DNA of 64,000 nucleotides from Dyella sp. EPa41. GTDB lineage: Bacteria; Pseudomonadota; Gammaproteobacteria; Xanthomonadales; Rhodanobacteraceae. Below are positions 40,935-57,580 of the stretch, one piece after another (the first letter of the stretch is position 1; every line of letters begins with the position of its first letter). The notes beneath the pieces are model-generated. The model ran no database searches and was not told the DNA's origin. It saw nothing but the letters and a program-made list of their open reading frames with translations. The stretch spans positions 1-64,000 of the forward strand of contig NZ_BCPR01000011.1 in the NCBI RefSeq assembly GCF_016586165.1, given 5' to 3'. A program made the translations under genes and the position numbers.

Positions 40935-41310
40935 AGGCCCGCCATGAAGGCGGGTGTACAAGGGACTCAGTCGCGTGGCGCCCAGGATGGTTCGCCCCAT
41001 CCATGGGGCTCACTCCTCCGCGCTGCGCGCTCCGGGGCCAGCGCTGCGCGCTGTCCAAATTCGTTCCAGACGAATTTGTCGAACGAGGCTCGTCTCCCGA
41101 CCCTCCCAGCCAAAAACAAAAGGCCCGCCATCGAGGCGGACTTGTGTACAAGGGACTCAGTCGTGTGGCGCCTAGGATGGTTCGCCCCATCCATGGGGCT
41201 CACCCCTCCGCGCTGCGCGCTCCGGGGCCAGCGCTGCGCGCTGTCCAAATTCGTTCCAGACGAATTTGTCGAACGAGGCTCGTCTCCCGACCCTCCCAGC
41301 CAAAAACAAA
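40935..41310. repeat. Tandem duplication of a ~188-bp unit beside attL
   Basis: Two near-identical units (40935-41120, 186 bp; 41121-41310, 190 bp) each start with AGGCCCGCCAT and end with the tRNA-end-like CTCCCAGCCAAAAACAAA. Inside each is the hairpin CAAATTCGT...ACGAATTTG and alternating GCTGCGCGCT motifs. A third partial start lies at 41311. They fill most of the 756-nt gap between the DUF4386 gene and the tRNA-like gene. No gene is supported inside them. Confidence 0.9.
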
Positions 41311-41353
41311 AGGCCCGCCATCGAGGCGGGCCTTTTGTTTTTTGGCTGGGAGA
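41294..41353. terminator. 60-bp near-perfect palindrome, native terminator of the tRNA-Gln locus
   Basis: The left arm (41294-41320) begins CTCCCAGCCAAAAACAAAAG; the right arm (41326-41353) is its reverse complement with one extra T. They pair over 27 positions with the loop ATCGA. The inner part is a strong terminator (GGCCCGCC/GGCGGGCC plus T-run) readable in both directions. The outer arm reproduces the tRNA-Gln acceptor 3' end, so the element's left junction lies in this palindrome. Confidence 0.8.
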
Positions 41354-41355
41354 CT
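41341..41355. other. attL of the integrated element
   Basis: TTTGGCTGGGAGACT is identical to 57566-57580. It is preceded by the native terminator palindrome and followed by sequence unlike a tRNA, as expected for the distal att site. Confidence 0.8.
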
Positions 41356-41516
41356 TACCCACCCTGTAACAGGGCCTAAGCCATTGACCGATAAGTCCCT
41401 GATGCGCGAGGCAACTCGGTGGGTTTGACCTCCGAAGTTGACCGAGGGTGGGAACGCTATCAGGGCGCCAGTCTGCAGCCAAGAGCCACGCCGCCCATGG
41501 CTTCCAATAAGTAAGG

Positions 41517-41636
41517 GAGCGGTGCCTGGATTTGAACCAGGACCTGTCACGTTTTAGGATGAACTTGCCCGTTCACTCCCAGACCGCCTCCGCGGCGACC
41601 ATTGCGTGACCGCTCTATCCATTGAGCTACACCGCT
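41517..41636 (-). tRNA. Atypical tRNA-like gene with a 55-nt anticodon loop
   Basis: Read on the minus strand, three of four tRNA arms are canonical. Acceptor AGCGGTG pairs with CACCGCT; U8-A9; D arm is GCTC-AATGGATA-GAGC with the conserved GG; T arm is CCTGG-TTCAAAT-CCAGG; the variable loop is 4 nt. The anticodon stem GTCAC/GTGAC is present but encloses 55 nt instead of 7. The insert can fold into two hairpins (GTCGCC/GGCGGT and GTGAAC/GTTCAT), and the loop's 3' end reads TCCTAAAAC, reminiscent of an Arg(CCT) loop. CCA is not encoded. It begins 4 nt after the stop codon of the HTH gene, on the same strand. It may be an intron-like or non-decoding tRNA, or a decayed one. Confidence 0.55.
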
Positions 41637-41640
41637 TTTT

Positions 41641-42165
41641 TCATTTCACAACTTTTAGCTGAGGCTTCCGGCGTTTTGCGCGTTCGGTTGCCTCGGCCAT
41701 ACGCCGCTTCTTTTCCTCAATGCGTTCCAAGGCGAAGGGGGTGGCGGCTTCAATCAAGCCAGCAAACGAATACTGGTTGGTGGTGGTGCCACCTTTCTTT
41801 GTGCTGCGCCGTGTTCGGGTGATGAACCCTGCTCCACTAAGTTTGGTAATCCGACGCTGGATAGTGCGAGGGTGCACGCCAATCGCAGCAGCAATCGTGG
41901 CTTTCGAAGGATGGGGCGCATTGCCTGCTTTCCACCAGTAGCCAGCCAAATGAAGAATGATATTGATGTCCAGCGGATCCAGCCCTAGGGCGTTCTGCCG
42001 TTCAAAAATGACCGACGGGATCGCCGTCCAGCCAGCATCTGTCAGCGGCTTCGACCACTTTTTCTCGACCTCAGAAATGTCTTCTGCGTTTTGCTCTTTG
42101 GTGTCTGCCATGGTCGCGTCGTCGTGATGCTTGTTCGTTGGATCAATGGTGATCCTGGTCTCCAT
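41641..42165 (-). CDS. Winged-helix/HTH protein, possible replication or regulatory protein of the element
   Basis: This 174-residue basic protein has a helix-turn-helix at about residues 85-125 (SKATIAAAIGVHPRTIQRRITKLSGAGFITRTRR) and a Lys/Arg-rich tail. It resembles HTH_36-type proteins found in phage and element replication or regulation modules. Its stop codon lies 4 nt before the tRNA-like gene, so the two may share a transcript. Upstream is a 393-nt intergenic region with a 10-bp inverted repeat that could be its target. Exact function unknown. Confidence 0.7.
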   Translation of the reverse strand: METRITIDPTNKHHDDATMADTKEQNAEDISEVEKKWSKPLTDAGWTAIPSVIFERQNALGLDPLDINIILHLAGYWWKAGNAPHPSKATIAAAIGVHPRTIQRRITKLSGAGFITRTRRSTKKGGTTTNQYSFAGLIEAATPFALERIEEKKRRMAEATERAKRRKPQLKVVK

Positions 42166-42370
42166 CGCAAAACAATACTTTTGCCCCTACCCCCCAGCGA
42201 CAGCAGCGCCTCCCTCTCATAGGTCTAATGGGTGTGGTTTCAAATGGGCGTCTGCTTACACCAAGGGGTCTACTTTGGGAGACAACAGCACCCCTAGGCT
42301 ACCGGACACATCTGCCTCCCCCTAGAGGCACTGATGCCCCCGGCATGGGAGATCAGACGTTGCAAATCAC

Positions 42371-42414
42371 GGCCAATATCTGGTGCCGGTCACGTCCAGC
42401 GCTCGATATTGGCC
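42371..42414. repeat. 10-bp perfect inverted repeat, possible operator or origin
   Basis: GGCCAATATC (42371-42380) and GATATTGGCC (42405-42414) are separated by 24 nt. It lies in the 393-nt divergent region between the HTH gene and the 42559 operon, which otherwise shows only a C/T-rich stretch near 42180-42215 and one promoter candidate. Confidence 0.6.
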
Positions 42415-42497
42415 CGCCCGCGTGGGCATATTTAGGCAGGCGTGACACCAAGCTGGGCACCATTGGGGCAATCACACGCGCCGAACTTCGGATTCTA

Positions 42498-42527
42498 TTG
42501 ACACGCGCAACTTTTAAGTGATGAAAT
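42498..42527 (+). promoter_or_regulatory. Candidate promoter of the 42559-44408 operon
   Basis: TTGACA (42498-42503) is a perfect -35, and TGAAAT (42522-42527) lies 18 nt further. The gene starts 31 nt downstream. Confidence 0.5.
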
Positions 42528-42558
42528 CCGCCTCAACGCAACTCTACAGGCGTAGTCC

Positions 42559-43191
42559 TTGGATAAGCCCACCATTCAGCAGTTACTCCTGGCCCACCTG
42601 TCCCGCGATTTGGTGCTCAACGTCGAGGAGCTGCTGGAAACCGGTGCGCAGCGTGCCTTTGGCAAGGCCAAAGGGATGAATGATGGGCATCTCCCCAGCG
42701 TGGTCGGCCAGCTTCGTCACTTCCACATGAACGAAGGGTTTGCCGCCGCCCTGGAAGGATCGGGCGCCTTCCCCACGCCGATCAAGGGCAATTCGCTGGT
42801 TACGGGCCGGGCGGGCATCTTCCAGCTCGGCCGTTTCAACCTCCGGCAGGGGCCTTGGTACAACGCTCGTCGCAGTGCCAAACGGCGTGTGATGGCGCAG
42901 GCCAACGCTGCCATTGAACCTCTGGTGCAGGGTGGCCTCTTTGACAGCCAGAAGCCCATCGCCACCGGGTCCGTATTCTTTGTCTGCATTTTCAGTGCAT
43001 CGCTCGAACATGGCGAGAAGCCCATGTCGATCGAGATCGCCGTGCCCAATCAGCATATGACTGACTGGCTTTTCCACGAGCCTGTTTCGCTGTTTGTTCA
43101 ACGTTACAACGATGTCGCCGTTCAAGATGACCGCGCAGTACCGATGTTGAAGACCCAACAGAAGACGGGCTCAAACCCAGAAGGGACGTAG
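42559..43191 (+). CDS. Unrecognised protein upstream of the XRE-ImmA/IrrE protease
   Basis: This is a 210-residue soluble protein with a TTG start. I do not recognise a family. Visible features are NVEELLETGAQRAFGKAKGMNDGHLPS near the N-terminus, a basic segment WYNARRSAKRRVM, and a beta-rich C-terminal half (VFFVCIFSASLEHGEKPMSIEIAVPN). Its stop is 2 nt before the next ATG, so the two are co-translated. By analogy with other protease-regulator pairs it may be a toxin, a substrate or a DNA-binding partner; this is inference only. Confidence 0.7.
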   Translation: MDKPTIQQLLLAHLSRDLVLNVEELLETGAQRAFGKAKGMNDGHLPSVVGQLRHFHMNEGFAAALEGSGAFPTPIKGNSLVTGRAGIFQLGRFNLRQGPWYNARRSAKRRVMAQANAAIEPLVQGGLFDSQKPIATGSVFFVCIFSASLEHGEKPMSIEIAVPNQHMTDWLFHEPVSLFVQRYNDVAVQDDRAVPMLKTQQKTGSNPEGT

Positions 43192-43193
43192 CC

Positions 43194-44408
43194 ATGACGC
43201 GGGGAATTAACGGGTTTCAGCCAGGGCGCTTAGCGCAAATCCTGGCCATAAGGCGTTTGTCGCAGGTGCAGGTCGCCACCATGGTTGGCGTGTCCCCCTC
43301 CACCATCAGCAAGTGGCGGGTGGGGCCCCAAGCCCCCGAAGCGGACAAGCTGGAAAGGCTGGCCTCGGTGGTCAATGTCCAGCCCGAATGGTTTACGCGG
43401 CCAATCCAAGAAAAGACAACCACCCCGCTCTTTCGCAGCAATGCCTCTGCGCACAAAGCTGCGCGTGAAATGCTGGAAGGTCGGTTGGAGTGGGCTCAGG
43501 AGATCGCTGCCAGCCTGGAAGAGTTCGTGGACTTCCCCGCAGTGCATTTTCCCGAGAAAACGTTTACAAACCCGGAAGAAATCACCCCGGAAGACATTGA
43601 GGCTGCTGCTCAGGACTGCCGTGACCTCTGGCGCCTTGGCTCGGGCCCCATCCCAGATGTCGCCCTTGCGCTTGAGAACGCCGGCGCCATCCTTATCCGG
43701 GAGGAAACGGGGGTCGCGCAGATTGAAGGACTTTCCGCGTGGAGCCGCAGGCTTCAACGGCCACTCGTTCTTCTTGCTGCCGACAAAGACAACGGTTTTC
43801 GCAGTCGCTTTGACGCCGCCCACGAATTGGGGCATGTGGTCCTCCACAAGCACATCCCAAGGGCCACCGAAAGGCTCCGCCACAATGAAATGGAGAAGCA
43901 AGCTCACCGGTTCGCCGGAGCATTTCTCCTACCGGCGGAAAGTTTTTCCGCTGAGATCCGGCTGCCAGTGACACTGGATAGCCTGCTTCTCCTCAAACAG
44001 CGTTGGGGGGTCTCTGTTGCTGCCTTGGTGATGCGGCTGGATGCCCTTGGGTTAATTTCAGAAGAGGACAAACTGTCTCTGTTCAAGCGCCGTTCTGCTC
44101 GTTGGGGCGTCAAGTCGGAACCAGGTGATGACGGCCGCATCCCAGAAAAACCCAGGCTGCTCAAAAGAACCATCGAACTCTTGCTGTCCTCCAACACGAT
44201 GCCCGCAGATGGGATTGCTCGCCATTTTGGGCTCTCAGCGCAAGACATCGAAATGCTCGCTGGCTTACCCGAGGGCTTTTTGAGCAACGACAAGGCAGAC
44301 GTGATCCCGTTGTCGGGCTTGCGCATCAGACAGCAACCCGAGACTGCGGAAGCTGGCATTTCCACTGGAACCGTGCTCGCCTTCCAACGGCGAAGTAAAG
44401 GCCGCTAG
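43194..44408 (+). CDS. XRE-type HTH plus ImmA/IrrE metallopeptidase
   Basis: This 404-residue two-domain protein has an HTH_XRE at about residues 10-65 (LSQVQVATMVGVSPSTISKW) and an ImmA/IrrE-type zinc protease with H210-E-L-G-H214 in FDAAHELGHVVLH. The downstream AHRFAGAFLLPAESF typical of the family follows, and then a further helical C-terminal region. ImmA-like proteases cleave repressors or antitoxins in response to a signal. Fusion with XRE often makes a stand-alone stress or defence regulator. It forms a two-gene unit with the preceding unknown gene. Confidence 0.88.
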   Translation: MTRGINGFQPGRLAQILAIRRLSQVQVATMVGVSPSTISKWRVGPQAPEADKLERLASVVNVQPEWFTRPIQEKTTTPLFRSNASAHKAAREMLEGRLEWAQEIAASLEEFVDFPAVHFPEKTFTNPEEITPEDIEAAAQDCRDLWRLGSGPIPDVALALENAGAILIREETGVAQIEGLSAWSRRLQRPLVLLAADKDNGFRSRFDAAHELGHVVLHKHIPRATERLRHNEMEKQAHRFAGAFLLPAESFSAEIRLPVTLDSLLLLKQRWGVSVAALVMRLDALGLISEEDKLSLFKRRSARWGVKSEPGDDGRIPEKPRLLKRTIELLLSSNTMPADGIARHFGLSAQDIEMLAGLPEGFLSNDKADVIPLSGLRIRQQPETAEAGISTGTVLAFQRRSKGR

Positions 44409-44419
44409 TCGTAATGATC

Positions 44420-44446
44420 GGGCCGCCTAGTTAGGCGGCCTTTTTA
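44420..44446 (+). terminator. Rho-independent terminator after the ImmA/IrrE gene
   Basis: GGGCCGCC-TAGTTA-GGCGGCC is followed by TTTTT. A readthrough-proof end to the two-gene unit, just before the convergent gene. Confidence 0.88.
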
Positions 44447-44475
44447 TCTGGTTTTAGCGGCACCACTGCCTTGGT

Positions 44476-45222
44476 TCATGGCAGGTGTTGCGCGTGGGCC
44501 TCCGCGAGCTCCCCTCGTAGAAGCTCCACCATTTCCAGATATTCCTTCCCAGGCTCCTCGCCTCGAAGCACTTGGAGTTGCCCCTGCAAGATGGACATGC
44601 GGATATCACTCAACGCAGCCGCGTATAGCTCCGATGGCGGCGATAACGTGGTCCAGAACGCTCGATCCAAACGCACCACACTGTCCTGTTGGATGATGCC
44701 GCCACTGCGTGGCAAGAAGACCAACTGGGGATACACCAGGCACTCAGCCCGCGCGGCGATTGTCACCGTCATGGCTCTCGGCTCCGTCGGTGTCGAAACG
44801 GAGTAAGCGGGTGCCACAAGATATGACGGCCGCTGAAAAGCGTTCCTGGCTCTGTCTCTCTCACTCGACGGCAGGTGGTTGTCAGGTATGCCATCGGCCA
44901 CCGCCAGGACCACACACCTACGGGCCTTTGCCCGAATAGCCAAAAGCTCCTCGCATTCACCGAGCTTCAATTTCAAAATCGGGAGCCGATTTTTGGGCCG
45001 GAAATCCTTGGAGGCGTCAATCGGCCGGATTTCCCCTCCCACCGCAGCGTGACTGTTTTGATCGGCACGCGCAGCATCGAAGAGGTGTAGCGGATGGCCA
45101 AATTCGGGAGTAACGGTCAGGACAAGCTGGCCGACAACGGGAGGGCCCACGGTCGAGATTGATGGGCCCGAGTGATAGACCGGCAAGATGTCGTGGATGT
45201 CCGTTCCGTTGCCGAAGCCCAC
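44476..45222 (-). CDS. Unrecognised protein paired with the Panacea-like gene
   Basis: This 248-residue soluble protein belongs to no family I recognise. It has no TM segments. The middle carries RLPILKLKLGECEELLAIRAKARRCVV (a beta-strand/helix region), and the C-terminus is an acidic helix (EYLEMVELLRGELAEAHAQ). It begins 10 nt after the stop of the Panacea-like gene. In Panacea toxin-antitoxin operons the partner gene encodes the toxin and varies widely, so this is a candidate toxin or effector. No lethal motif is visible to prove it. Confidence 0.7.
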   Translation of the reverse strand: MGFGNGTDIHDILPVYHSGPSISTVGPPVVGQLVLTVTPEFGHPLHLFDAARADQNSHAAVGGEIRPIDASKDFRPKNRLPILKLKLGECEELLAIRAKARRCVVLAVADGIPDNHLPSSERDRARNAFQRPSYLVAPAYSVSTPTEPRAMTVTIAARAECLVYPQLVFLPRSGGIIQQDSVVRLDRAFWTTLSPPSELYAAALSDIRMSILQGQLQVLRGEEPGKEYLEMVELLRGELAEAHAQHLP

Positions 45223-45232
45223 GACAGCCTCC

Positions 45233-45955
45233 TCAGATCAAACGGGCGTCAAATGGGATATGGCCGTTGCTGGTCACATCTTCGGCATCCGCCTCAGCCA
45301 TGGCACGGGAAAAGGCGCCGTCATAAATCGGACGATGGGCAGCCATGGCCCGATCCGAGGCCCTACCCACCTCGAATTTCTTTCTCATGGCCTCGCTCAA
45401 CTCTAAAAGGCGCATGATCTTGGCTGGGTCTTTGATGTGCGTATGACGGTGAGGGGTTTGCTCGCCCTCGATCGCCAATCCCTGAAAATCAAGCTGATCC
45501 CCGGGAGACGCATCCCGCATGGGCGTCGTTTTGAAATAGACGTAGTCCAGCAGTTTGCCCAAATCATTGGCGTATTTGCTGATGTAGCCCGCAAACCGAG
45601 ACGCCAAAGAGCCCGACAACCCCAGATCGGTCACTCTCGGTCCGATCGGATATTCCCCGAGCCAAAAGAGGGCGAACTCCTTGTTTTTCGACTCGCCCGC
45701 CTTGGACTGAATAACCCCCTGGACACCAAGCTCATCAATGGCCGAAGCCAAATCTGTCGCAAATGGCCCATAGTGGTGCAGATACCAATGGGCACCACTG
45801 AGGGTCTGCCCGCCGTGTCCCTCGGCATACAGGCAGTCCAACAGATACACCAACTTGGTCAAACTGGTTTTAGAAATGCCGCGCACACCCGCCTGTTTGG
45901 CCTCCTGTAAGACGGCCAAGACGGCGGAACGCATCGTGGGGCTGACGGCAGGCAT
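45233..45955 (-). CDS. Panacea/SocA-like domain protein, candidate antitoxin
   Basis: The 240-residue protein has at residues about 28-75 the pattern of the Panacea (DUF4065/SocA) domain: SLTKLVYLLDCLYAEGHGG, HWYLHHYGPFATDLASAIDEL. The region after about 110 is unassigned. Panacea domains act as neutralising antitoxins (PanA) or as the proteolytic adaptor SocA. It precedes the unknown 248-residue gene by 10 nt and has an extended -10 promoter of its own. Confidence 0.75.
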   Translation of the reverse strand: MPAVSPTMRSAVLAVLQEAKQAGVRGISKTSLTKLVYLLDCLYAEGHGGQTLSGAHWYLHHYGPFATDLASAIDELGVQGVIQSKAGESKNKEFALFWLGEYPIGPRVTDLGLSGSLASRFAGYISKYANDLGKLLDYVYFKTTPMRDASPGDQLDFQGLAIEGEQTPHRHTHIKDPAKIMRLLELSEAMRKKFEVGRASDRAMAAHRPIYDGAFSRAMAEADAEDVTSNGHIPFDARLI

Positions 45956-45983
45956 AGGCGGCAGCTAGGGAATAGAACTCAAC

Positions 45984-45992
45984 ATTATAGCA
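45984..45992 (-). promoter_or_regulatory. Extended -10 promoter of the Panacea-like operon
   Basis: On the minus strand TGCTATAAT is a perfect extended -10 (TGn plus TATAAT), 29 nt upstream of the start codon. Two direct copies of GTTTGA at 46000-46016 (plus strand) lie in the -35 region and could be operator half sites. Confidence 0.6.
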
Positions 45993-46064
45993 AGCCCATG
46001 TTTGAGGGGAGTTTGACCGTCTCTACCCAACCATAAAGCGCAAATAGCGCAAGCCCTGGTCCAA

Positions 46065-46385
46065 CTATGGTTTTGGCTTCATGAGGGCCTTGGCCGGGGT
46101 CAGACCGGCCGCGATCCGGCGATCCAGTTCGACGATCACGGCAGGCCAGTCCGCACCGTACAAGTTCACCAAGTCTCGGACCACCAGCAGATCCAGGCCC
46201 CTGGCACCGTTTTCCATTTCAGAGATCCCGGCCTGGGTGATGCCCACGGCTGCGGCGGCTTGCGCTTGGGTCAGGCCGGCCGCCAGCCGGAGCTCCCTGA
46301 GCAACTGAGCCACCACCCGGTGCTCCGGTCGGTGAACGGAGGTGGGTTTGGGCTTCGACTTCGGCGTTTTGGGCGGGCTGACCAT
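46065..46385 (-). CDS. XRE family transcriptional regulator
   Basis: This 106-residue protein has a Lys/Pro-rich N-terminal tail and one HTH_3 domain at residues about 25-80 (LRLAAGLTQAQAAAAVGITQAGISEMENG). Its gene is 109 nt upstream of the Panacea-like gene on the same strand. It is divergent from the lipoprotein gene across an AT-rich region with repeated TTCATTT, a plausible autoregulatory operator. Confidence 0.88.
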   Translation of the reverse strand: MVSPPKTPKSKPKPTSVHRPEHRVVAQLLRELRLAAGLTQAQAAAAVGITQAGISEMENGARGLDLLVVRDLVNLYGADWPAVIVELDRRIAAGLTPAKALMKPKP

Positions 46386-46561
46386 ACCGCCACGCTACGC
46401 ATCAGGCGTAGATATTCATTTTTACTATGTTCATTTGTTTTTCGTATATTTGGCGTAACGGAATGAGCGGCTGCATGTGGCATCCCCTCTTCCCGACGCC
46501 AACGCCGGGCAGGTGACGTTTGGCGCCCCTTCTCCACCTGCCTCGATACAGGGACCGACAC

Positions 46562-46909
46562 ATGAAGTTCGGATGGAAAACCGCTTTGACGTTGTTCGCG
46601 GCGGTGCTACTGGCTGGTTGCGCCACCACCATGGGACGTGACTACGACCAGAGCAAGGTCGCGCAGTTTGTGCCGCATCAAACGACGATGAATCAAGTCA
46701 TCGCAGCCCTGGGGCAGCCGCAAGAACGGGAAACCGAAAGCGACGGCACCACGCGCCTCCACTATCAGGTCATCGTCAGCAAGTCGTCCGTGGGCGATTA
46801 CATCCCCTTTGCCCCGGTCAAAGCAAACGTTTCCGACAAAGATACCTACCTCTTTTTCGACCGCAACGGGACATTCCTGCGGGCTGAAAACACCCAGTCA
46901 AACGAGTGA
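46562..46909 (+). CDS. Small lipoprotein of the SmpA/OmlA (BamE-like) type
   Basis: The 115-residue protein from MKFGWKTALTLFAAVLLAGC has a clear lipoprotein signal with lipobox LLAGC. The mature part follows the SmpA/OmlA pattern: a helix with PHQTTMNQVIAALGQPQERE, then strands ending YLFFDRNGTFLRAEN. Such domains bind envelope proteins or surface ligands. It is followed 11 nt later by a membrane-protein gene, forming an envelope pair carried by the element; an exclusion or phage-resistance role is conceivable but untested. Confidence 0.82.
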   Translation: MKFGWKTALTLFAAVLLAGCATTMGRDYDQSKVAQFVPHQTTMNQVIAALGQPQERETESDGTTRLHYQVIVSKSSVGDYIPFAPVKANVSDKDTYLFFDRNGTFLRAENTQSNE

Positions 46910-46920
46910 AGGGAATCAGC

Positions 46921-47448
46921 ATGGGCATCCTGATCCAGATCGCGCGCATCGCCGTGGCCATTGCGGCTGGCTTCATTGCCGGATGGCTCCTGTTTTTTGT
47001 GGTGGGGCTTCGTTTCCTGCCGCCTGGTTTGCTGGTGCCCGGCTGCATGGTCGCGGCGTGGTTCCTGTTGCCTCGGCTCTTTCCGGTCTTCAAACCCCAC
47101 CCCAAGACCGAGAACGCTGGGCCAATCACGCTGCACGCGAACGGCCATTCTTTCGAAGCCACGCACCACACCAAAAACGTTGCGATCAACGCCGTGACTA
47201 GGCAGGTCTGGTTCCGCGACACAAAGGGTAAGGAATGGATTCTCTCCCCTGGGGATATTCGCAGTTGGAACCACGAGTGGACGGACCGTTCCAATGCCCA
47301 TGGGATGGTCGCGCACAACGACAACCGCCTGGTCATCACGACGAACGACCTCAACCACCCGACACACAAGATCAAGATGGGCGGTCACTTCAAGCACGAC
47401 CTGGCGAAGGAATGGCACGCGCGCCTGACGGCGATGCTGAAATCCTGA
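46921..47448 (+). CDS. Unrecognised inner-membrane protein
   Basis: This 175-residue protein from MGILIQIARIAVAIAAGF has AAGGGA 9 nt ahead of the ATG. Two adjacent TM helices occupy residues 5-60. The remainder is a soluble His-rich domain (TLHANGHSFEATHHTKNVAIN, EWILSPGDIRSWNHEW), with a PH-like beta pattern. No family recognised. It is co-transcribed with the lipoprotein and ended by a good terminator. Confidence 0.72.
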   Translation: MGILIQIARIAVAIAAGFIAGWLLFFVVGLRFLPPGLLVPGCMVAAWFLLPRLFPVFKPHPKTENAGPITLHANGHSFEATHHTKNVAINAVTRQVWFRDTKGKEWILSPGDIRSWNHEWTDRSNAHGMVAHNDNRLVITTNDLNHPTHKIKMGGHFKHDLAKEWHARLTAMLKS

Positions 47449-47521
47449 CCGCTGCGCTGCTTACCAGGCTTGGGTGACCTAGGGAAGTCAGGCGTTCTCG
47501 CCGATGCACCAGGTGACCTAG

Positions 47522-47555
47522 GAGGCCGCTTCCATCGGAGGCGGCCTTTTTCTTT
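47522..47555 (+). terminator. Rho-independent terminator after the envelope pair
   Basis: GGCCGCTTCC and GGAGGCGGCC form a 10-bp stem (one wobble) followed by TTTTTCTTT. Confidence 0.85.
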
Positions 47556-47727
47556 GAACCTTGAAACAAGGACCAAGGGAGCCGTAGGCATCACCTCGAC
47601 CGCGTCACACTCATGGCGTGATCAAAATCTGCTTCTGGCCGAGCGGTTCCACACTTCTGGCCAGCGCGTTCAATCACAGCGGCCAACTCCGGCAAGCGTG
47701 GACATCATGGCTATTCTGGTCCACCTG

Positions 47728-47977
47728 ACCACCCGTGCTTGAACACGCTGGCCACACAAGGCGTAACAGGCTGAAAGGATTGATTTCCCTCCTGGCCACT
47801 GGCGGCAATGCCCTGTGGGCTAAAAGATGCGCCTCCGACATCGGGGCCACAACCATGCTTGAACCAACTGGCCACATGATGGATCCCGCTGGCCACCTGA
47901 AAACGGCTTGTTTTCAGGGCTAACGTGCGTGTGGCATGCGTCCACACAACCGGCCAGATTGTTCAAGCACGGGTGGT
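47728..47977. repeat. Cluster of CTGGCCAC/TTGAAC boxes flanking the IS21 element
   Basis: The 610-nt gap between the membrane-protein gene and istB has no supported gene. It contains an 18-bp perfect inverted repeat (ACCACCCGTGCTTGAACA at 47728-47745, reverse complement at 47960-47977). There are also repeated GCTTGAAC-n-CTGGCCAC boxes (around 47738 and 47859) and further GGCCAC/GTCCAC copies. IS21 ends are known for multiple transposase-binding repeats, so this is probably the IS left end or a remnant of a related end. Confidence 0.55.
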
Positions 47978-48018
47978 CACGTGGTCCACAAACATCACCT
48001 CACCTGGATCAGGCCAAA

Positions 48019-48047
48019 AAGAAACGCGCCTCGTGGGCGCGTTTCTA
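48019..48047 (-). terminator. Terminator after istB
   Basis: AGAAACGCGCC-TCGT-GGGCGCGTTTCT is a near-perfect long stem 12 nt past the istB stop, flanked by an A-run that reads as a T-run on the minus strand. Confidence 0.8.
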
Positions 48048-48058
48048 GGCGGGCATGG

Positions 48059-48784
48059 TCATGCGCTTCTCGTTGGTGGCTTGGGCCGTTGTAACTCGAT
48101 CACTTGGACCTTTTCGGCCAGGCGGCTACACACGGCGTCTGCCGTGGTTGTGTCGTCGAAATAGGTTTCCCAATCCTGCAAATGGTTGGGCGACACCACC
48201 AGGGTGGCCCTACCGTGGCGACGGCGACTGTCCAGCACCTTCAACAGGTCATAGCCCTGGGACATCGTGGTTTTCTGGGCCGCGAAGTCATCGAGGATCA
48301 ACAAGGGCACGCGGCTCAACGACCGAAACTGTTTGGTGCGTGCCGCTCCTGCTGGGGTATCCCCCAGCGTTTCCAACAGGTCCGGTGTGCGCCAATACGT
48401 CACGCCGAGTTTCAACAGCATCGCTTCACGTCCCAGGGCGCTGGCCACAAACGTCTTGCCTGCACCACTCGGCCCCATGATGACCACCTGGTGCCCCTGC
48501 CGCACCCAATCGCAGCTGGCCAACTGGCACAACACCCGGGGCGGCAACCCGCGCTGGGTGGTCGTGCGCACGTCTGCCACGCAAGCCACCGGCAAATCTG
48601 CTTCCCGGAAGAACCGTTCCACACGATGATCCGCCGCGTCCTGCTTCTGGGCCAGCACGAGGGCTTCGACACACTCCAACGAGGGCCGGTCATGATTGGC
48701 CGGTTGATCCATCCATTCCTGCAAACACGCCGCCATCGCGCCCAGTCGAAGGGCGCGCAAATCTTTCAGGGTCTCGGTCAGCAT
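48059..48784 (-). CDS. istB: IS21-family helper ATPase IstB
   Basis: IstB is the AAA+ helper that remodels target DNA for IstA. The 241-residue protein has Walker A MGPSGAGKT and Walker B LLILDDFAAQ, both within the DnaC-like AAA+ core, and an N-terminal helical region. It overlaps the istA 3' end by 7 nt. It appears intact. Confidence 0.93.
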   Translation of the reverse strand: MLTETLKDLRALRLGAMAACLQEWMDQPANHDRPSLECVEALVLAQKQDAADHRVERFFREADLPVACVADVRTTTQRGLPPRVLCQLASCDWVRQGHQVVIMGPSGAGKTFVASALGREAMLLKLGVTYWRTPDLLETLGDTPAGAARTKQFRSLSRVPLLILDDFAAQKTTMSQGYDLLKVLDSRRRHGRATLVVSPNHLQDWETYFDDTTTADAVCSRLAEKVQVIELQRPKPPTRSA

Positions 48785-50310
48785 GCGGCCTCCTTGACCT
48801 GTCTAGCGAAGGCCTTGGAGCCCTGCGCATACCGATGGCGAGGCCGGGTGGTCTTGGCCGGTGCATTGGCCTGGGATTGCTTGCTCAGGATCCGGCGAAG
48901 TGTCCCGAGTGAAACGGTGTTGAGGTGAAGCGTCTCACCTGCCGCCTGGTTCAGCGCCAGCGTGCCATGTTTTTCGGCCAAGGCCTTCACTTCATCGCAG
49001 GCAGGCAACGCGGCGAGGGGGTGGGATTTGCCGATGAGGTTGCGCACGAACTGCGCCACGTGCGGGCCGGCTTTCTTGGCCCATGCCACCATGTGTTCCG
49101 GCGTGCGTTCCGACCAGGCACGGTGATCGTCGCTGAGGTGGGCCGGATCCGTGGTATGCCCACCCCGCTCGAAACTGCGCGCGTGGCTGGTGACCTGCTC
49201 GGTTTCCTTGAAAATCTCCACGCGGTCCGCCGTCAACCTGGCGGTCAGGCGTTGTCCCGTCAGTGCATGCGGCACGGAATAATGGTGATGGTCCACACGC
49301 ACGTGGTAGTCCTTGGGCACCCGTGGGATCGCCACCCACTTGGCATACACAAACGGCTCGGTGGGCAACGGCTGCAAGGCTTGGCGTTCCGAGGCCTCGA
49401 ACCGTTCCCATCGGCTCTTCCGATACTCGGTCATGGGCCGCCGGTTCAGTTCGTCGAGCAGTTCCGCCAGGGATGCGTTGAGCTCTTCGATCGAATGATG
49501 GGTGCGCTGGTGCAAGCGGGCCACGATGTGGTCCTGGACGATGCGAACCGACGTCTCCACAGTTGCCTTGTCCCGGGGCCGAAACGGCCGGGCCGGGTTG
49601 ATCGCAATGCGATAGTGCCGGGCAAACTCCTTGTAGTCCGCCTGAAGCACAGCTTGGCGGCCGGCCTTGATCACCGCTGACTTCAGGTTGTCGCACACGA
49701 TCGTGAGCGGTGCGCCTCCGAAATACACCAGCATGTCGATATGGGCCTGGATGAAGTCCGGCACCTTCTGGCTGGGCACGCACCTGGCGAAGATAAGCGA
49801 GGACGCCGGCAGCACGGCCACGAAAAGCTGGACGGTCACTGGCTTTCCTGTGGTCGCATCCAGGTATGTGGGCAGTGGAATGCGCTTGAACCCGGCGAAG
49901 TCGACGTAGGCCTTGAAGCCCGGCTCATGGGACATCCGCATCCCTGTGGGCAGCGTTTTCCGGTAGCGGCGCATCCGTGCCGCCAGCTGGGAATAAGACA
50001 GCGTGCCGTGGGGGTCTTCACGCCGGTAGTCCTCCCACAGCACCTGCAACGTGGCCCCCTCATCCAGGCGCTGCTGGAACTCTGCGAAATCCGGTGCCCG
50101 TCGGGTCTTGTTGCCATTGGGATCCCGGTTGAACCGTTGGGTCAGTTTGGAGGGCGTCAGGTGCGCCAGATCGGACCATCGCAAATGTTTGGCATCGGCC
50201 AACCGTCGGTAGCGCCCCACCGTGGTCTTCGACACACCCACAGCGTCAGCGATCTCCCGATCGGACAAAGGGGTGGTGAGCACCAGGCGGACGGTGTCGT
50301 GGATTTTCAT
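48778..50310 (-). CDS. istA: IS21-family transposase IstA
   Basis: IstA is the DDE transposase. The 510-residue protein has an N-terminal HTH (LSDREIADAVGVSKTTVGRYRR). The rve core has its acidic residues in YVDFAGFK, IVCDNLKSAV and RDKATVETSVRIVQ, and a Mu-transposase-like C-terminal domain follows. Full length with no frameshift, so the element may be active. Confidence 0.95.
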   Translation of the reverse strand: MKIHDTVRLVLTTPLSDREIADAVGVSKTTVGRYRRLADAKHLRWSDLAHLTPSKLTQRFNRDPNGNKTRRAPDFAEFQQRLDEGATLQVLWEDYRREDPHGTLSYSQLAARMRRYRKTLPTGMRMSHEPGFKAYVDFAGFKRIPLPTYLDATTGKPVTVQLFVAVLPASSLIFARCVPSQKVPDFIQAHIDMLVYFGGAPLTIVCDNLKSAVIKAGRQAVLQADYKEFARHYRIAINPARPFRPRDKATVETSVRIVQDHIVARLHQRTHHSIEELNASLAELLDELNRRPMTEYRKSRWERFEASERQALQPLPTEPFVYAKWVAIPRVPKDYHVRVDHHHYSVPHALTGQRLTARLTADRVEIFKETEQVTSHARSFERGGHTTDPAHLSDDHRAWSERTPEHMVAWAKKAGPHVAQFVRNLIGKSHPLAALPACDEVKALAEKHGTLALNQAAGETLHLNTVSLGTLRRILSKQSQANAPAKTTRPRHRYAQGSKAFARQVKEAAC

Positions 50311-50808
50311 TCGGACAAACTCCTTTCACCGGCGGTGTCCCAACCGCCGGGGGCTGTTTCAGGCAAAGGGGAATCGAGACGGCGCCCCGGGTCTCGGGGC
50401 GTCGACTTGACAGTCGTGGGGGACGGGCCTAGAACAGTCGGCGCAGTGTTGGGACCAACCGCACCGCACCTAGAAGGGTCGAGAGTTCACGCTCTCGGCC
50501 TTTCGCGTTTCTGGCCAGGGGGCATCAGTGATGGGGGTGCATGGGTGGGCTCCTCTGGAATAGGGTCACCCTGCGGCGCAGGGTTCCAGAGTTCTAGCCT
50601 CGGCGGCCGTTTTGTCAATCGACACCTGGCCGGGCGCCGGGAGCCCCTCCGGCGCGGCGAGATGAGATGAGGCCCTCCCTGCCTGATGGCCCTGGCGAGC
50701 CTATAAGCTTTGGTCAGGACAAATGGCGCCTTCGGCACCCGGTGCCTCCTGGTCCTTGTTTTGCTCCGCTATCTGATCCGAAACCTGGAAGGAACCACGG
50801 GGGGAACC
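50311..50808. other. Intergenic region: IS21 right end and leader of the RloC-like gene
   Basis: This 498-nt GC-rich stretch has no supported gene. It contains short inverted repeats (for example CCGGCGGTGTCCCAACCGCCGG at about 50331-50352 and CCCTGCGGCGCAGGG at 50570-50584) and must hold the right IS end and the promoter of the downstream ATPase gene. I could not identify either with confidence. Confidence 0.5.
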
Positions 50809-53043
50809 ATGATCAAGAGCATCTCTATCCAGGGTTACAAGAGTTTCGCCCGCGAACGGGCCACGTCCATTGAGTTCGATGCAACCAAGCGGGTGGCCCT
50901 GCTTTATGGCGTCAACGGCGCCGGCAAGTCTGCGATCGGCCAAGTGATCCATCACAACGGCAACAGCACCAACCCCATCGCCAACTGTTCTCTTACGCTC
51001 ACGCGGGACGAACCCTACCAATACCTGGTCTACAACGAAGAGTTCATAGACGAAACGTTCCGCAATCGGACCAACATGCCGGGCATCTTCACCATCGGCA
51101 AACCCGAGGCCGCCGCCCTGGAACAAGCGGAACGATTGGAGCAGCAAACGAACCAATGGCGAGACGACATCGAGCGTCTGAATGAGCAGAAAGAAGCACG
51201 TGAGGCGGAGGCCAACCGCGCCTACACGGCGGTCCTCGATGGCGTGTGGCCTGCCTACACATCCCACAAAACCGGCGCCATGAAGGAATGGCTGGAAGGT
51301 TTTGGAGGAGCCAAGCGCAAGTTGTTTGAAGAACTGAGCCGCATCTCCTTCGATGCCACTGTCGTCCCGCCGACCATCGAGGCACTTACCACCCGGATGG
51401 CGGACGTGGCCGACCGAACGGCAACCGCTCGATCAGAATGTTCCCTGGACCTGACCGAGTTCGAAAGCCTCGAAAGCAACGCGCTGTGGGGCCAGGCCAT
51501 CCTTGGATCTGGCGACAGTTCCTTGGCGGCCCAGATCCAAGCCCTCGGCAACATGGATTGGGTGAGGCAAGGCAAACCCTATGTGGAACACAGCACCAGT
51601 TGCCCCTTCTGCCAGCAGGATTTGCCGCACGATTTTTCCACCCAACTGGCCCGCCTGTTCGACACGTCTTACGAAAACCGCATCGCCGAGATCAACCAGT
51701 TGGTGGAGGACTACCAGTCCGAGGTGACCCGCCTATCTGACACGATGGACCAGTTGCTGGCCGATGAGCCCTTTGCGAAAGATCACCCAGACCTTTCGCG
51801 CACCTGGGCCGAACTGAACTTGGTGCTGTCCGCCAACATCGGTCTCATCGAGAAGAAACAACAGTCGCCGGGTGAAGTGGTTGCTCTCCAAGCGTCCAAG
51901 GATGCTCGCCAGGCAGTTTTGGATGCGGTCACGCAGGTGAATGAACGCATCCGGCAGTTCAACGCGCGCATTGCCGATCGTGACAATGAGCGCACCCGCA
52001 TCAAGAAAGGTTTCTGGCTCCGGTTGCGCCATGACTACGAGGGCGTTCTCTCGGTCTACAAGGCTTCAAAGACTTCAACGGACAGCGCCATCGCCACCAT
52101 CACCGCTGAGGTCAATGGTCTCCGTCAAAACCTCATCACCGCCGAAGGGCAGCTGGTCCAGTTACGCGCCAGCACCACGGGAACCGACAAAGCCATCGAA
52201 GCCATCAATGGTCGCCTGGTTTCTCTCGGGATTGATGCCTTCAAGATCAAGAAGGAGGGAACCGGCCATCTTTACCACTTGGAGCGCAGGGATGGTGGCG
52301 TGGATGACTATCGCTCGCTCAGTGAAGGCGAGAAAACGCTGATCACATTTTTGTATTTCGTCGAGCTGATCAACGGCTCGGCTGTCGCGGACAGCACCAT
52401 TCCACTGAACCGAAAAATCGTGGTCATAGATGACCCCATTTCGAGCCTCTCCCACAACTACGTCTACGACATTGCCTCCATCATCGTCCACGACATCGTT
52501 GCCTTGAAGGACGATGAAGGACACCAGCTCAAACAGGTCATCATCCTGACGCATAGCCTGTTCTTTCATCACGAACTGGTCTCCGTCCACGGCAAAGCGA
52601 AGCAGCTGGATTTCAAGCGTGTCTTGAAGCATAGCCACACCGTGGTGGTGCCGATGAACAGTGATGAGTTGCTCAACGATTACGAGGCCTATTGGCAGGT
52701 TGTGCGAGATGCCAAGGAAGGCAATGCCACCCGGATCATGCTCGCCAACGCCATGCGCTGCATCTGCGAACGGTTTTTCTACTTCACCCGCCGACAAGAC
52801 GATTTCAAGGCGGCCCTGAAAAAGATCAGCGAGCAAGAACACCGGTTCACCCCGTTGGCGCGCTACCTGGACCGCCAATCCCACGCCGATGGCGTCAATC
52901 ACACCGATTTTGGCGATTACGATGTGGGCTACTACCTGGAAAAGTTTCGGCTGGTCTTTCAAGAGACCGACCAAATGGCCCATTACACAGCCATGCTTCG
53001 TGAAGAGGGGGCTCCTGGCGAGGGAACCGCAGACGCAGCCTGA
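50809..53043 (+). CDS. RloC/PrrC-like AAA_13 ATPase with zinc hook and putative anticodon-nuclease motif
   Basis: This is a 744-residue SMC/Rad50-like ATPase. Walker A GVNGAGKS is at residues 34-41. Long coiled coils enclose C265-P-F-C268, the zinc-hook CxxC of RloC. The ABC signature LSEGEKTL is at about 504, and Walker B VIDDP has Asp541/542 followed by the SSL D-loop. In the C-terminal part R650-x3-E654 and H692 (in RQSHADG) reproduce the R-x3-E...H layout of the PrrC/RloC tRNA-nuclease (HEPN-like) active site. RloC cuts tRNA anticodon loops after DNA damage or phage attack. No restriction-modification genes are adjacent, so it is an orphan. GGGGGAAC precedes the ATG; the frame is open 33 codons upstream. 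Confidence 0.82.
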   Translation: MIKSISIQGYKSFARERATSIEFDATKRVALLYGVNGAGKSAIGQVIHHNGNSTNPIANCSLTLTRDEPYQYLVYNEEFIDETFRNRTNMPGIFTIGKPEAAALEQAERLEQQTNQWRDDIERLNEQKEAREAEANRAYTAVLDGVWPAYTSHKTGAMKEWLEGFGGAKRKLFEELSRISFDATVVPPTIEALTTRMADVADRTATARSECSLDLTEFESLESNALWGQAILGSGDSSLAAQIQALGNMDWVRQGKPYVEHSTSCPFCQQDLPHDFSTQLARLFDTSYENRIAEINQLVEDYQSEVTRLSDTMDQLLADEPFAKDHPDLSRTWAELNLVLSANIGLIEKKQQSPGEVVALQASKDARQAVLDAVTQVNERIRQFNARIADRDNERTRIKKGFWLRLRHDYEGVLSVYKASKTSTDSAIATITAEVNGLRQNLITAEGQLVQLRASTTGTDKAIEAINGRLVSLGIDAFKIKKEGTGHLYHLERRDGGVDDYRSLSEGEKTLITFLYFVELINGSAVADSTIPLNRKIVVIDDPISSLSHNYVYDIASIIVHDIVALKDDEGHQLKQVIILTHSLFFHHELVSVHGKAKQLDFKRVLKHSHTVVVPMNSDELLNDYEAYWQVVRDAKEGNATRIMLANAMRCICERFFYFTRRQDDFKAALKKISEQEHRFTPLARYLDRQSHADGVNHTDFGDYDVGYYLEKFRLVFQETDQMAHYTAMLREEGAPGEGTADAA

Positions 53044-54675
53044 TCACCCCACCAGCCGAGGCGCAGGCCGCAACCGTGGCTGTGGTGGCACTTCTTCCAA
53101 CGGCACAACCGGCGCAGGTGCAGGTGCAGGCCTAACCGCCTCAATCCAGACCCGCTCTTCTTCATTGGTAGCCGACATCAACTTGTCAGCAAGCACCTGG
53201 CTCAATGCCTGCACACGGTTCAATGCTTGATCGAGCCGGCTCTTGTTTTCGACCTCTTCCTGTTTCAACACCTGCGCTTCCTGGTCGAAAGCATCGAGGT
53301 GCACCTGATGGTGTCGCCGTGTCCCTTTGATCTCCTGCACCCGACACTCCTGGACTTCAACGGCATTGCGCAGTGTCCGCCAAGCGGCGGGTTTGCCCTC
53401 GTCGTTCCCAGCCTTCTTCGCCAAGAACATCAACAACGGGTGGACATCTTCCCAGTCCGTCAGCCGCTGTCTTGTCGCTGCACGCATGGCTCGGGCTTGG
53501 TCCAGCTGGAAATCTGTATCGAGCTTCGCGGCCATCCGCCGTTCCCGGCCTTCGCCGTGAATTCGGAACCGATCCGCCAGCTCAGCCAAGGCGCCCAGCA
53601 CCCGCTGGATCACCTGAACCAATCGGAGCACGCGGGCCAACACCTGGTGGGCCTCCGGCGTTTCCGGGATGGGAGCGGCGGCCTGGAACCGGGCGACCAA
53701 TGATCCGGGCTCGCCATCGAGAAGCGGCATCAAGACCACCGGGGCAAGGGTGGCTGGCGGAATGATTTCGCCAGGCCCGACCGTCTCAGGCTCGGGGTTG
53801 GCCTCCCGGACTGTTTCCCTCTCCCGCGCCACATCTTCCATGGCGCGCCGGTGCTGTTCGTCGAGCACCACGGCATGGGCGGCCTCGTAGACCTTCGCCG
53901 GGAGCATGATGTCGCCGCGCAAGGCATCGCCGCGCCGGGTGAAGAAGCCCCGGCGTTCCATCGCCGTCACAGCGGCGCCAAGGGTCGGTTGCGGCGTGAT
54001 GGGCAAGTCCTGGCGGGCATAGCTGAGGTGGGTGTAGTCCGCGGGCAGGTTGTTGGCCGCCGTATAACGGTTGGCCAGTTCTGCCCACTTTTCATTGAGG
54101 CGTTCCACGAACGCCCCGGACGTGTTCTTGTTCGAGAGCAGCACCAGCTTGGCGCCCAGCCCCCAGTTGGAGGCGCCGTCCTCCCCCTGGATCTCTTCCA
54201 GCCGGCGGGTCGGGAAATAGATATGAGCATGAAAGCCCTGCCTATCAGGTGGCTTCACATTGCCAAGGGCGTCCACGTCTGCATCGCGGTGCAGACCCAA
54301 CGAAACCGCCGTATGCAGTTCTCGGCAGATGAACCGAGCCATCTCCTCGGCCAAGTCGCCGGCCTGCTGATCCGTCAAACCAATGGGCACCGGGATCCTG
54401 TAATCCCTGGCCACCTGGGCATCTTTCCGCTTCTCGGCGGCTTCCACGCGGTTCCAGAGCTCTCCCGGATCCGTCGCCCAGACCGGGGCGCCCTCGGGGG
54501 CCACCGTGAGCGCCCTGACGATTTCCTCGCCGATCTTCCGCCGGCGGTAGTCGTGCCAAACGCCAGTGCGGCGGTCGTAAAGACGCAAGCCGAGGCGGTA
54601 AGCGACCCCTGCGATGGCGGAGTGGCCCGCGCCGCGAGAGTGAGTTTCAAGGTGGGGGCGGGCATGCAAAGCCAT
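53044..54675 (-). CDS. MobQ-type (MobA/MobL) relaxase
   Basis: The relaxase nicks oriT and pilots DNA during mobilisation. From MALHARPHLE (543 residues) the N-terminal domain shows SRGAGHSAIAGVAYRLG with a likely catalytic Tyr26, RTGVWHDYRRRK, and the metal-binding HxH at H149-A-H151 followed by PTRRL. The C-terminal half is helical with long Gln/Arg coiled coils, and it ends in a Pro-rich tail. An ATG 35 codons upstream exists, but the MobA_MobL domain begins at this Met. Its 3' end meets the RloC-like gene tail to tail. Confidence 0.92.
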   Translation of the reverse strand: MALHARPHLETHSRGAGHSAIAGVAYRLGLRLYDRRTGVWHDYRRRKIGEEIVRALTVAPEGAPVWATDPGELWNRVEAAEKRKDAQVARDYRIPVPIGLTDQQAGDLAEEMARFICRELHTAVSLGLHRDADVDALGNVKPPDRQGFHAHIYFPTRRLEEIQGEDGASNWGLGAKLVLLSNKNTSGAFVERLNEKWAELANRYTAANNLPADYTHLSYARQDLPITPQPTLGAAVTAMERRGFFTRRGDALRGDIMLPAKVYEAAHAVVLDEQHRRAMEDVARERETVREANPEPETVGPGEIIPPATLAPVVLMPLLDGEPGSLVARFQAAAPIPETPEAHQVLARVLRLVQVIQRVLGALAELADRFRIHGEGRERRMAAKLDTDFQLDQARAMRAATRQRLTDWEDVHPLLMFLAKKAGNDEGKPAAWRTLRNAVEVQECRVQEIKGTRRHHQVHLDAFDQEAQVLKQEEVENKSRLDQALNRVQALSQVLADKLMSATNEEERVWIEAVRPAPAPAPVVPLEEVPPQPRLRPAPRLVG

Positions 54676-54793
54676 GTCGTCGTCCTTGTCGTAGGCCACC
54701 CTTGCGGATGGCGGTCGGTCATCCTGACCATGAAGAAGCGGAGCGCCGGCTGTGCATGCCCGCCCCACGCCAACATCCAAGCAAAGGCGGCCA

Positions 54794-54817
54794 ATATGTC
54801 AAGCATGCTTGACATAT
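54794..54817. promoter_or_regulatory. 24-bp perfect palindrome upstream of the relaxase
   Basis: ATATGTCAAGCA is followed directly by its reverse complement TGCTTGACATAT. It also presents a TTGACA -35-like hexamer on each strand. Its position about 120 nt ahead of the relaxase start suggests an operator for mobilisation or part of the relaxosome site. Confidence 0.7.
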
Positions 54818-54912
54818 CTGAGTCGGGATTTGTGATGGCGGGCGGGGTGGTCGCGCCTAGCTTGGCGGGTGCTCTGGCTCGACGCTTAGCGTTGGCCTTG
54901 GCTCTGAGCGTC

Positions 54913-54943
54913 GTGTTCGCAGAACACTAAGACGCGCTCTGCG
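54913..54943. other. Candidate oriT: inverted repeat plus nic-like sequence
   Basis: GTGTTC-GCA-GAACAC (54913-54927) is a perfect 6-bp hairpin followed at once by TAAGACGCGCTCTG. This resembles the RSF1010/R1162 nic region TAAGTGCGCCCT, which likewise follows an inverted repeat. Further inverted sequence (CGACGCT...AGCGTCG) lies just upstream. The 463-nt gap between relaxase and membrane-protein gene otherwise shows no gene. Confidence 0.5.
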
Positions 54944-55138
54944 CCTTTTATTTGGACGTCTATATGACGCGTCTTGACAGACCTTCGGCTTCGGCTAGAA
55001 CTGGCGCCAACCCGTTTGCCCAGGATTGCTCATGCAACGCACACAGCGGAAACCAACCCTGTCGAATTGGATTTTTTGGCTGGTGATCTGCTCATCAGGC
55101 TGCTATTTCCTATCGATCTTTTTTCTAGCGATTGCTCA

Positions 55139-56002: not shown

Positions 56003-56012
56003 CAGCGGCCCC

Positions 56013-57488: not shown

Positions 57489-57534
57489 GACTTGTACCGA
57501 CCAAGCCGCCCGAGCACCCAAAACGCAGGCATAA

Positions 57535-57564
57535 AAAAAGCCCTGCATTCGCAGGGCTTTTTCA
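57535..57564. terminator. Terminator just downstream of tRNA-Gln, inside the element
   Basis: AAAAAGCCCTGC-ATTC-GCAGGGCTTTTT is a perfect hairpin usable in both directions. It replaces the native tRNA terminator that was displaced to 41.3 kb by the insertion. Confidence 0.88.
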
Positions 57565-57565
57565 G

Positions 57566-57580
57566 TTTGGCTGGGAGACT
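57566..57580. other. attR of the integrated element
   Basis: TTTGGCTGGGAGACT covers the acceptor/T-arm junction and CCA end of tRNA-Gln and is repeated exactly at 41341-41355. Confidence 0.82.

Follow-up and report, generated by a model that had tools for sequence, protein, structure and literature searches.

The gene at positions 41517..41636 of the window, i.e. of the whole 64,000-nt stretch of Dyella sp. EPa41 DNA that was analysed, is located on the minus strand and specifies a tRNA-like RNA of 120 nt (subtype A, see below), identified by its match to the Rfam family RF00005, the stability of its fold and its homologues. The comparison with these homologues demonstrated that the members keep the body of a tRNA, that the anticodon arm is replaced by a covarying structure and that the 5' end abuts a stop codon. 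The best explanation, to which we assign an even chance of being right, is that they constitute a family of tRNA-shaped, probably non-decoding RNAs that would probably serve as the RNA effector of a regulator-effector cassette. The family occurs on plasmids, integrated elements and some chromosomes, and the gene upstream most often encodes a winged-helix (HTH) protein of the regulator or replication type. No description of these RNAs was found in the literature searched, including the accessible part of PMC9897764, and the statement is limited to that literature; the new Acinetobacter replicon reported in PMC11142715 proved, as far as the available text goes, to be unrelated to the tRNA-like RNA.

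Structure of the tRNA-like RNA gene

Read on the minus strand (41636..41517), the window RNA is closed by the 7-bp acceptor stem AGCGGTG/CACCGCT, followed by TA, and contains the D arm GCTC-AATGGATA-GAGC with G18, G19 and A20 (41612..41627, minus strand) as well as the T arm CCTGG-TTCAAAT-CCAGG (41525..41541, minus strand). G26 is present 3' of the D arm, the variable region reads AGGT and the discriminator is C73, such that the cloverleaf body of a canonical tRNA is present. A cmscan search of 501 bases returned RF00005 with 48.2 bits (gathering threshold 29) and an E-value of 2.4e-9, the alignment marking the anticodon loop as '[55]', i.e. as bypassed. The acceptor, D and T arms, which an earlier reading of the sequence alone had called textbook, were hence confirmed by their sequences and by the Infernal check proposed in that reading.

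The canonical 5-bp anticodon stem with its 7-nt loop is absent from the window gene, and the arm is also enlarged in 13 other members. Positions 41546..41610 (minus strand) form a rebuilt arm with two hairpins inside, as deduced from the minimum free energy (MFE) fold and stem covariation. Its stem GTCACG/CGTGAC, in which 41610-41605 pairs with 41551-41546, covaries in comparison with three subtype-A relatives. Inside GTCAC/GTGAC lie 55 nt, compared with 7 nt in the canonical loop, which yields the excess of 48 nt noted in the sequence-only reading. The two extra hairpins of that reading were likewise recovered in the MFE fold: insert hairpin 1 (41582..41600, minus strand) has the apical motif CGCGGA that is common to the four subtype-A members, and insert hairpin 2 (41555..41581, minus strand) reads TGGGA.GTGAAC...GTTCATCCTA. 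A hairpin is present at the same place as the latter in the relatives, in a register other than that of the window and with weak conservation. The insert ends with TCCTAAAAC on its 3' side. The complete fold, which comprises the tRNA arms and the two insert hairpins, has an MFE of -49.6 kcal/mol and a z-score of -3.74, and none of 200 shuffled sequences was equally stable.

The gene is readily overlooked by standard annotation tools. A cmscan of the whole window with the Rfam fast filters listed only a 6S RNA and tRNA-Gln, ARAGORN reported only tRNA-Gln in the window, and it detected none of the tRNA-like RNAs of the family across the loci scanned. RNAs of a conserved family that follow mobile-element genes at their 3' ends can thus escape notice.

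Like canonical tRNAs (RF00005), the members of the family possess acceptor, D and T arms, G18, G19 and A20, and a T-loop, and CCA is encoded at positions 74-76 in 7 of 18. They differ from canonical tRNAs by an anticodon arm that is extended by 30-54 nt and contains hairpins, by the missing 7-nt decoding loop, by a stop codon just upstream and by irregular acceptor ends, since the pair 1-72 is absent in 6 of 18 members and C73 is found in 13 of 18. The latter nucleotide is unusual in ordinary tRNAs. Unusual arm lengths, including some 6-bp anticodon stems, are known from the non-canonical selC-like tRNA-Cys, allo-tRNA and tRNA-Pyl (PMC7609411), and odd arm lengths and a 6-bp anticodon stem in some cases are shared with the RNAs considered here; a branched anticodon arm of the present kind is not described in the accessible sections of that paper.

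Relatives of the RNA and conservation of the anticodon arm

Relatives were collected by means of the HTH protein encoded upstream and, additionally, by means of the RNA itself. A tblastn search of plasmids with the HTH protein yielded 278 records at 1e-8, of which 21 were examined for what stands behind the HTH gene, and genome searches covered 299, 398, 347 and 4 genomes, supplemented by single matches from scans of viral and genome contigs. With near-copies (L007, L044/L050) and repeats (L057, L059) excluded from the count and the marginal match L006 (E 7e-4) dropped, 36 distinct HTH loci were obtained. A tRNA-like RNA with an enlarged anticodon arm is located directly behind the HTH homologue in 13 of them, from alpha-, beta- and gamma-proteobacteria: the window, Burkholderia cenocepacia (two tandem copies), Methylocaldum, Paraburkholderia, Spongiibacter, Bradyrhizobium, Caulobacter, Xanthobacter and the loci G035, G499, G829, G727 and G864. 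In the other 23 loci, no tRNA-like RNA was found with the RNA model R1 at E-values up to 0.1. Among 347 genomes of the order of G499, the HTH gene was detected in nine and the RNA in four of these nine. The scan of viral contigs with the HTH protein gave 25 pattern stretches and no relative when a single sequence was the query; one relative each was identified with an HTH profile in the viral contigs and by the HTH scan of genome contigs, both without a tRNA-like RNA behind, and tblastn in phages produced one partial match. A 5.7-kb Vibrio plasmid carrying the HTH gene (L012) also contains two PAGEV RNAs (RF03037) at 836-1054 and 3590-3808.

Model R1 was built from ten members of subtype B and models this subtype only. 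It assigned 73-109 bits to its ten building members and 66-109 bits to all 14 subtype-B members, and the best ordinary tRNAs among 299 genomes scored at most 62.3 bits. This value was exceeded at four places in the 299 genomes, namely G829 and G499, which are part of the model, as well as the new members G545 and G374. Two further searches, in sets of 289 and 100 genomes that overlap with the 299, added G1123 (66.1 bits) and G1295 (74.7 bits); R1 searches of more than 40 genomes were run with stricter filters, by which weak matches are lost. Accordingly, four members (G374, G1123, G545 and G1295) were found without the HTH gene as a guide. A remote HTH homologue (E 1.5e-15) is encoded upstream of the RNA in G374 and a DndB-like protein (PF14072, 5.2e-17) in G1123, and neither type of gene was found upstream in G545 and G1295, where ORFs of 61 and 125 aa, possibly due to chance, precede the RNA. 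The latter two RNAs seem to occupy the same locus, beside what we take to be a DUF1489 gene. In two genomes of one family, tRNA-like RNAs without an HTH gene (L095:7967-8070 and L098:1501-1613) were observed apparently at the same chromosomal locus. Moreover, the member on an Acidisoma plasmid is located behind an unrelated ORF of 102 aa. Blastn searches with single tRNA-like RNAs retrieved two and three plasmid records, the query's own included; a third query retrieved no plasmid record, and blastn against phages retrieved none.

In the commoner subtype B, an anticodon stem of 6-7 pairs is followed by a bulge with the triplet KCK and then by a hairpin that closes back on the stem. The sixth stem pair is present in all ten aligned members. 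The bulge triplet is TCT, TCG or GCG in 12 of 14 members and GCT in G374 and G545, usually with A as the next nucleotide. The idea that the bulge always represents an Arg anticodon was weakened by these two GCT members and by the different triplet (often TTC) that results when counting from a 5-bp stem; since the triplet varies and depends on position counting, only KCK is claimed. Moreover, the 26 ordinary tRNA loci scoring best with R1 matched genes for Arg (12), Met (9), Ile (3) and Pro (2), and because of this mixture no isotype is claimed. Three members, G499, G727 and Bradyrhizobium, deviate in the inner part, which contains GAAATC and GAGAGTA, and pair poorly in the outer hairpin; the G035 sequence folded by itself did not surpass shuffled sequences in stability (z -0.54).

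The unfitted alignment A4 of subtype B showed pairing in 93.5% of 276 cells and changes on both sides in 16 pairs, compared with 4.9 in shuffled alignments, none of 500 of which reached this number. In slid controls 38-56% of the cells were paired, the tested structure having been derived from a single row of the alignment, a circumstance that gives it an advantage over the slid versions. At the base of the insert hairpin, 80% of the cells are paired and three of five pairs show two-sided changes. Subtype A comprises the window, both Burkholderia copies and Paraburkholderia and lacks the KCK bulge; its stem columns contain compensatory changes, including G-C versus C-G at two pairs. R1 gave low scores to this subtype (window 49.7, Burkholderia 44.1 and 49.7, Paraburkholderia 43.1 bits); ordinary and other odd phage tRNAs reached 56.7 bits in the same run. 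Covariation, for which a check in related elements had been suggested, was detected in both subtypes, in subtype A in the stem columns, and the converse expectation, homologues with an uninterrupted loop and random decay in the window copy, was contradicted by the enlarged arms of the homologues. Homologues, covariation and placement together uphold the earlier assumption of a selected tRNA-like RNA, and its presumed non-decoding character, for which the missing 7-nt decoding loop is the reason, may be regarded as probable.

Upstream gene, downstream slot and mobile element

The gene upstream of the window RNA (41641..42165, minus strand) encodes a winged-helix protein with an HTH_36 domain (Pfam, 6.9e-11) and a DnaD-N-like fold; an alignment of homologues suggests that translation starts at 42111 rather than at the start of the ORF. 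The distance between its stop codon and the RNA is 4 nt, in agreement with the sequence-only reading. In a structure model built from three sequences (mean pLDDT 66.9), the best match was the N-terminal winged helix of DnaD (Z 10.4, 84 residues, rmsd 2.7), with many other winged helices matching at Z 7-9, and an NCBIfam search of the protein gave no informative name. The region upstream of the gene (42210..42351, minus strand) contains four GGGAG/CTCCC half-sites, candidate operators or iterons, compared with 1.1 expected, a number reached in 5 of 200 shuffles. In total, 56 such half-sites were counted upstream of 17 close HTH members versus 19.9 in shuffles, with an uneven distribution, as the half-sites are absent from two regions and do not exceed the chance level in several. 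The protein may be a replication initiator or an autoregulator. A 3.0-kb plasmid carries the HTH homologue and one short annotated gene, and pMSMB1471 of B. ubonensis encodes the homologue alongside a separately annotated replication initiation protein.

The position relative to the preceding gene is a common property of the family. Eighteen of 19 tRNA-like RNAs start -10 to +19 nt from the stop of a co-directional ORF of at least 60 aa, compared with 6 of 26 ordinary tRNA loci under the same mechanical rule (-15 to +25), three of the latter only via a TAG inside the tRNA; the rows of this comparison are related by descent, so that a Fisher value is not a true probability, and the ORFs in G545 and G1295 are perhaps due to chance. 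The exception is the second Burkholderia tandem copy (Bcen2), which follows the first copy at a distance of 57 nt with no ORF before it. In two loci, G035 and G374, the HTH stop codon and the RNA overlap, and processing would consequently remove this codon.

The slot behind the HTH gene is filled differently in loci without the RNA. It encodes MazF/PemK in two Sphingobium loci, a RelE-type protein in Aeromonas and Marinobacter and, in L015, L018, L054 and L055, a HEPN-like protein behind a hairpin RNA, with a weak Pfam match to Abi_2 (0.0012, L015) and, in our own reading, an RNR-x-AHH motif. The hairpin between the HTH gene and this Abi_2-type gene, CCCCGG...ACCGGGG, is conserved (L015:3474-3644, L018:3474-3637, L054, L055) and is perhaps an RNA antitoxin. 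The slot genes of L046 and L049 are presumably DUF3800-like, those of L011, L017, L019 and L023 specify proteins of 171-177 aa without known relation, and nothing nameable was found in the remaining loci. Two adjacent co-directional genes, one of them encoding a DNA-binding protein, as in toxin-antitoxin systems, are present in the window and at the other HTH loci with the RNA; this layout was not found at G1123, G545, G1295 and Acidisoma. When mapped by parsimony onto a tree built from 35 HTH proteins, the RNA label required 10 changes, at least five of which are forced by well-supported branches. Its clustering did not exceed that of shuffled labels, 206 of 500 shuffles giving a count as low, and 15 of the 32 inner branches are poorly supported. 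Sister pairs include Caulobacter (RNA) and two MazF loci, G829 (RNA) and Methylobacterium (protein), and Spongiibacter (RNA) and Vibrio (none). This scattering is compatible with an effector that is swapped between loci and, to the same degree, with a hot spot at which unrelated genes insert.

The window RNA lies about 160 bp inside one end of an element that extends from roughly 41341 to 57567, as deduced from the recurrence of a 15-nt repeat, 13 nt of which represent the 3' end of tRNA-Gln. The attachment repeat at 41341..41355 marks the end nearest the tRNA-like RNA and that at 57566..57580, overlapping the 3' end of tRNA-Gln, the other end. Together with a putative integrase gene (56013-57548) that adjoins tRNA-Gln and whose product matches only DUF6538 in Pfam, the repeat supports the location at the edge of a mobile element that had been proposed. 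The element also carries a MobA/MobL relaxase gene (53044-54780) and an IS21-type pair (48059-50310). DNA of the tRNA-like gene was found in one of 20 genomes of the genus, that is, its own. A tRNA fragment left at the attachment site was rejected as its origin, since the attachment repeat is the end of tRNA-Gln, about 160 bp off, and the body of the tRNA-like RNA is complete. Upstream of the HTH gene, the element also carries a pair of RmrT- and RmrA-like genes (PADLOC, 42559-44408), and two direct repeats of 186 nt (98% identical, spacing 190) are located just beyond the element end at 40954-41329.

Proposed pathway and alternative explanations

According to the best explanation, the HTH gene and the RNA would be transcribed together, RNase P would cut just 3' of the stop codon and the 3' enzymes of the host would complete the RNA to about 103-126 nt with a CCA end. 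Its rebuilt arm would block decoding and display a bulge or loop, such that a tRNA-handling factor might be engaged. Once processed out of the 3' part of the HTH transcript, the RNA would become the effector of the cassette, a role to which the RNA-targeting toxin-type genes in the same slot of sister loci point. Since a ribosome at the end of the upstream ORF would occlude the 5' portion of the tRNA-like RNA, translation and RNA maturation might be mutually exclusive. Arguments against the best explanation are the absence of an upstream HTH gene in two of the four RNA-only finds (G545 and G1295), the scattering of the RNA label on the HTH tree as if at random, by which the slot could be a mere hot spot, the irregular acceptor ends (pair 1-72, C73) and the position of Bcen2 behind a tRNA-like RNA rather than an ORF. 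The small RNA toxin CreT, derived from a mini-ORF, sequesters rare tRNAs and is repressed through CRISPR (PMC8501985). To judge from the part of that report available, it would resemble the present RNAs as a small RNA effector on translation if the effector reading holds; it differs in that it is not a tRNA mimic and in its CRISPR-based repression. The more far-reaching assumption of widespread mobile tRNA-mimic effectors that are cut by RNase P from regulator mRNAs, are swappable on plasmids with MazF, HEPN or RelE proteins and act in trans on translation or the tRNA machinery is tentative and rather doubtful. An action in trans would introduce a tRNA-mimic effector into mobile-element biology.

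A serious rival, with a clearly lower probability than the best explanation, is a cis function in 3'-end control, by which the RNA would serve as a tail setting a regulated 3' end of the upstream mRNA through RNase P or tRNA-binding factors, with no role in trans; translation termination would then be coupled to tRNA processing. The tight spacing between stop codon and RNA despite unrelated upstream genes (HTH, DndB-like, 102-aa plasmid protein) and the overlap with the HTH stop codon in G035 and G374 are in line with this function, whereas the second Burkholderia copy, located 57 nt behind the first copy and not behind a gene, argues against it, and an encoded CCA and an elaborate anticodon arm would be superfluous for a processing site.

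It is improbable that the RNA is a decoy shielding host tRNAs from a PrrC/RloC-like anticodon nuclease of the AAA_13 type or a similar enzyme. An AAA_13 gene (50710-53043, PF13166 9.3e-116) is indeed present on the window element about 9 kb from the tRNA-like RNA, the Bradyrhizobium plasmid carries another at a distance of about 5 kb from its RNA, and subtype B shows an anticodon-like KCK triplet in its bulge. PF13166 was however detected in only 2 of 17 carrier genomes or records (none at E 1e-10 in the other 15), and the subtype of the window lacks the bulge, so that the decoy proposed in the sequence-only reading was not confirmed as a general function, although such a use might occur locally on the window element.

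An interrupted tRNA that decodes after removal of the insert, also considered earlier, is very unlikely. The insert is positioned in the anticodon loop, in the window it contains TCCTAA, which we assume to resemble an Arg-CCU loop, and the bulge triplet corresponds to Arg anticodons (TCT, TCG or GCG) in 12 of 14 subtype-B members. Against this explanation, a triplet of this kind is missing from the 5' side in subtype A, the triplet of two members is GCT (Ser), the extension is conserved, measures merely 30-54 nt and covaries in its stems as part of a fixed arm, and the sixth stem pair is present in each of the ten aligned subtype-B members; moreover, no Rfam intron family was among the matches up to E 1 at the window gene (501-base search). 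A protein-spliced (BHB) intron would, upon excision, leave a 5-bp stem with a 7-nt loop, and the sixth pair is what the aligned subtype-B members show in this respect. Group I introns that interrupt the anticodon loop are described for the bacterial tRNAs fMet and Ile2 in the accessible part of PMC8450103. The location of the interruption is the same in the present RNAs, and the difference is an extension that is far below the size of a group I core and covaries as a permanent arm. Group I introns are also found in the anticodon loop of bacterial tRNA-Arg. With 53-55 nt, the insert is too short for a group I intron, as had been pointed out in the first reading, and such an intron was rejected on size and the absence of an Rfam match. 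A degenerate tRNA pseudogene carried by the element, which the irregular first pair and discriminator of several members might suggest, was rejected as extremely improbable, since compensatory changes accompany the conservation of body, arm and placement over three classes of proteobacteria.

When viral contigs were scanned with a tRNA pattern, 14 stretches were obtained, which were taken as other kinds of odd tRNA; none had an HTH homologue directly upstream, and two weak HTH-profile matches were located elsewhere on L036 and L042. Nine viral contigs (L031, L032, L033, L034, L036, L037, L039, L041 and L042) encode a near-identical tRNA-like RNA in which a hairpin with a 7-nt loop is separated from the T arm by a very long stretch. 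In two tRNAs of phage contigs (L035:2316-2433 and L040:9782-9901), the anticodon loop is longer by about 44-46 nt. Removal of these nucleotides could, by eye, give a normal Arg(UCU)-type loop, and the two tRNAs are better candidates for a short intron than the window gene.
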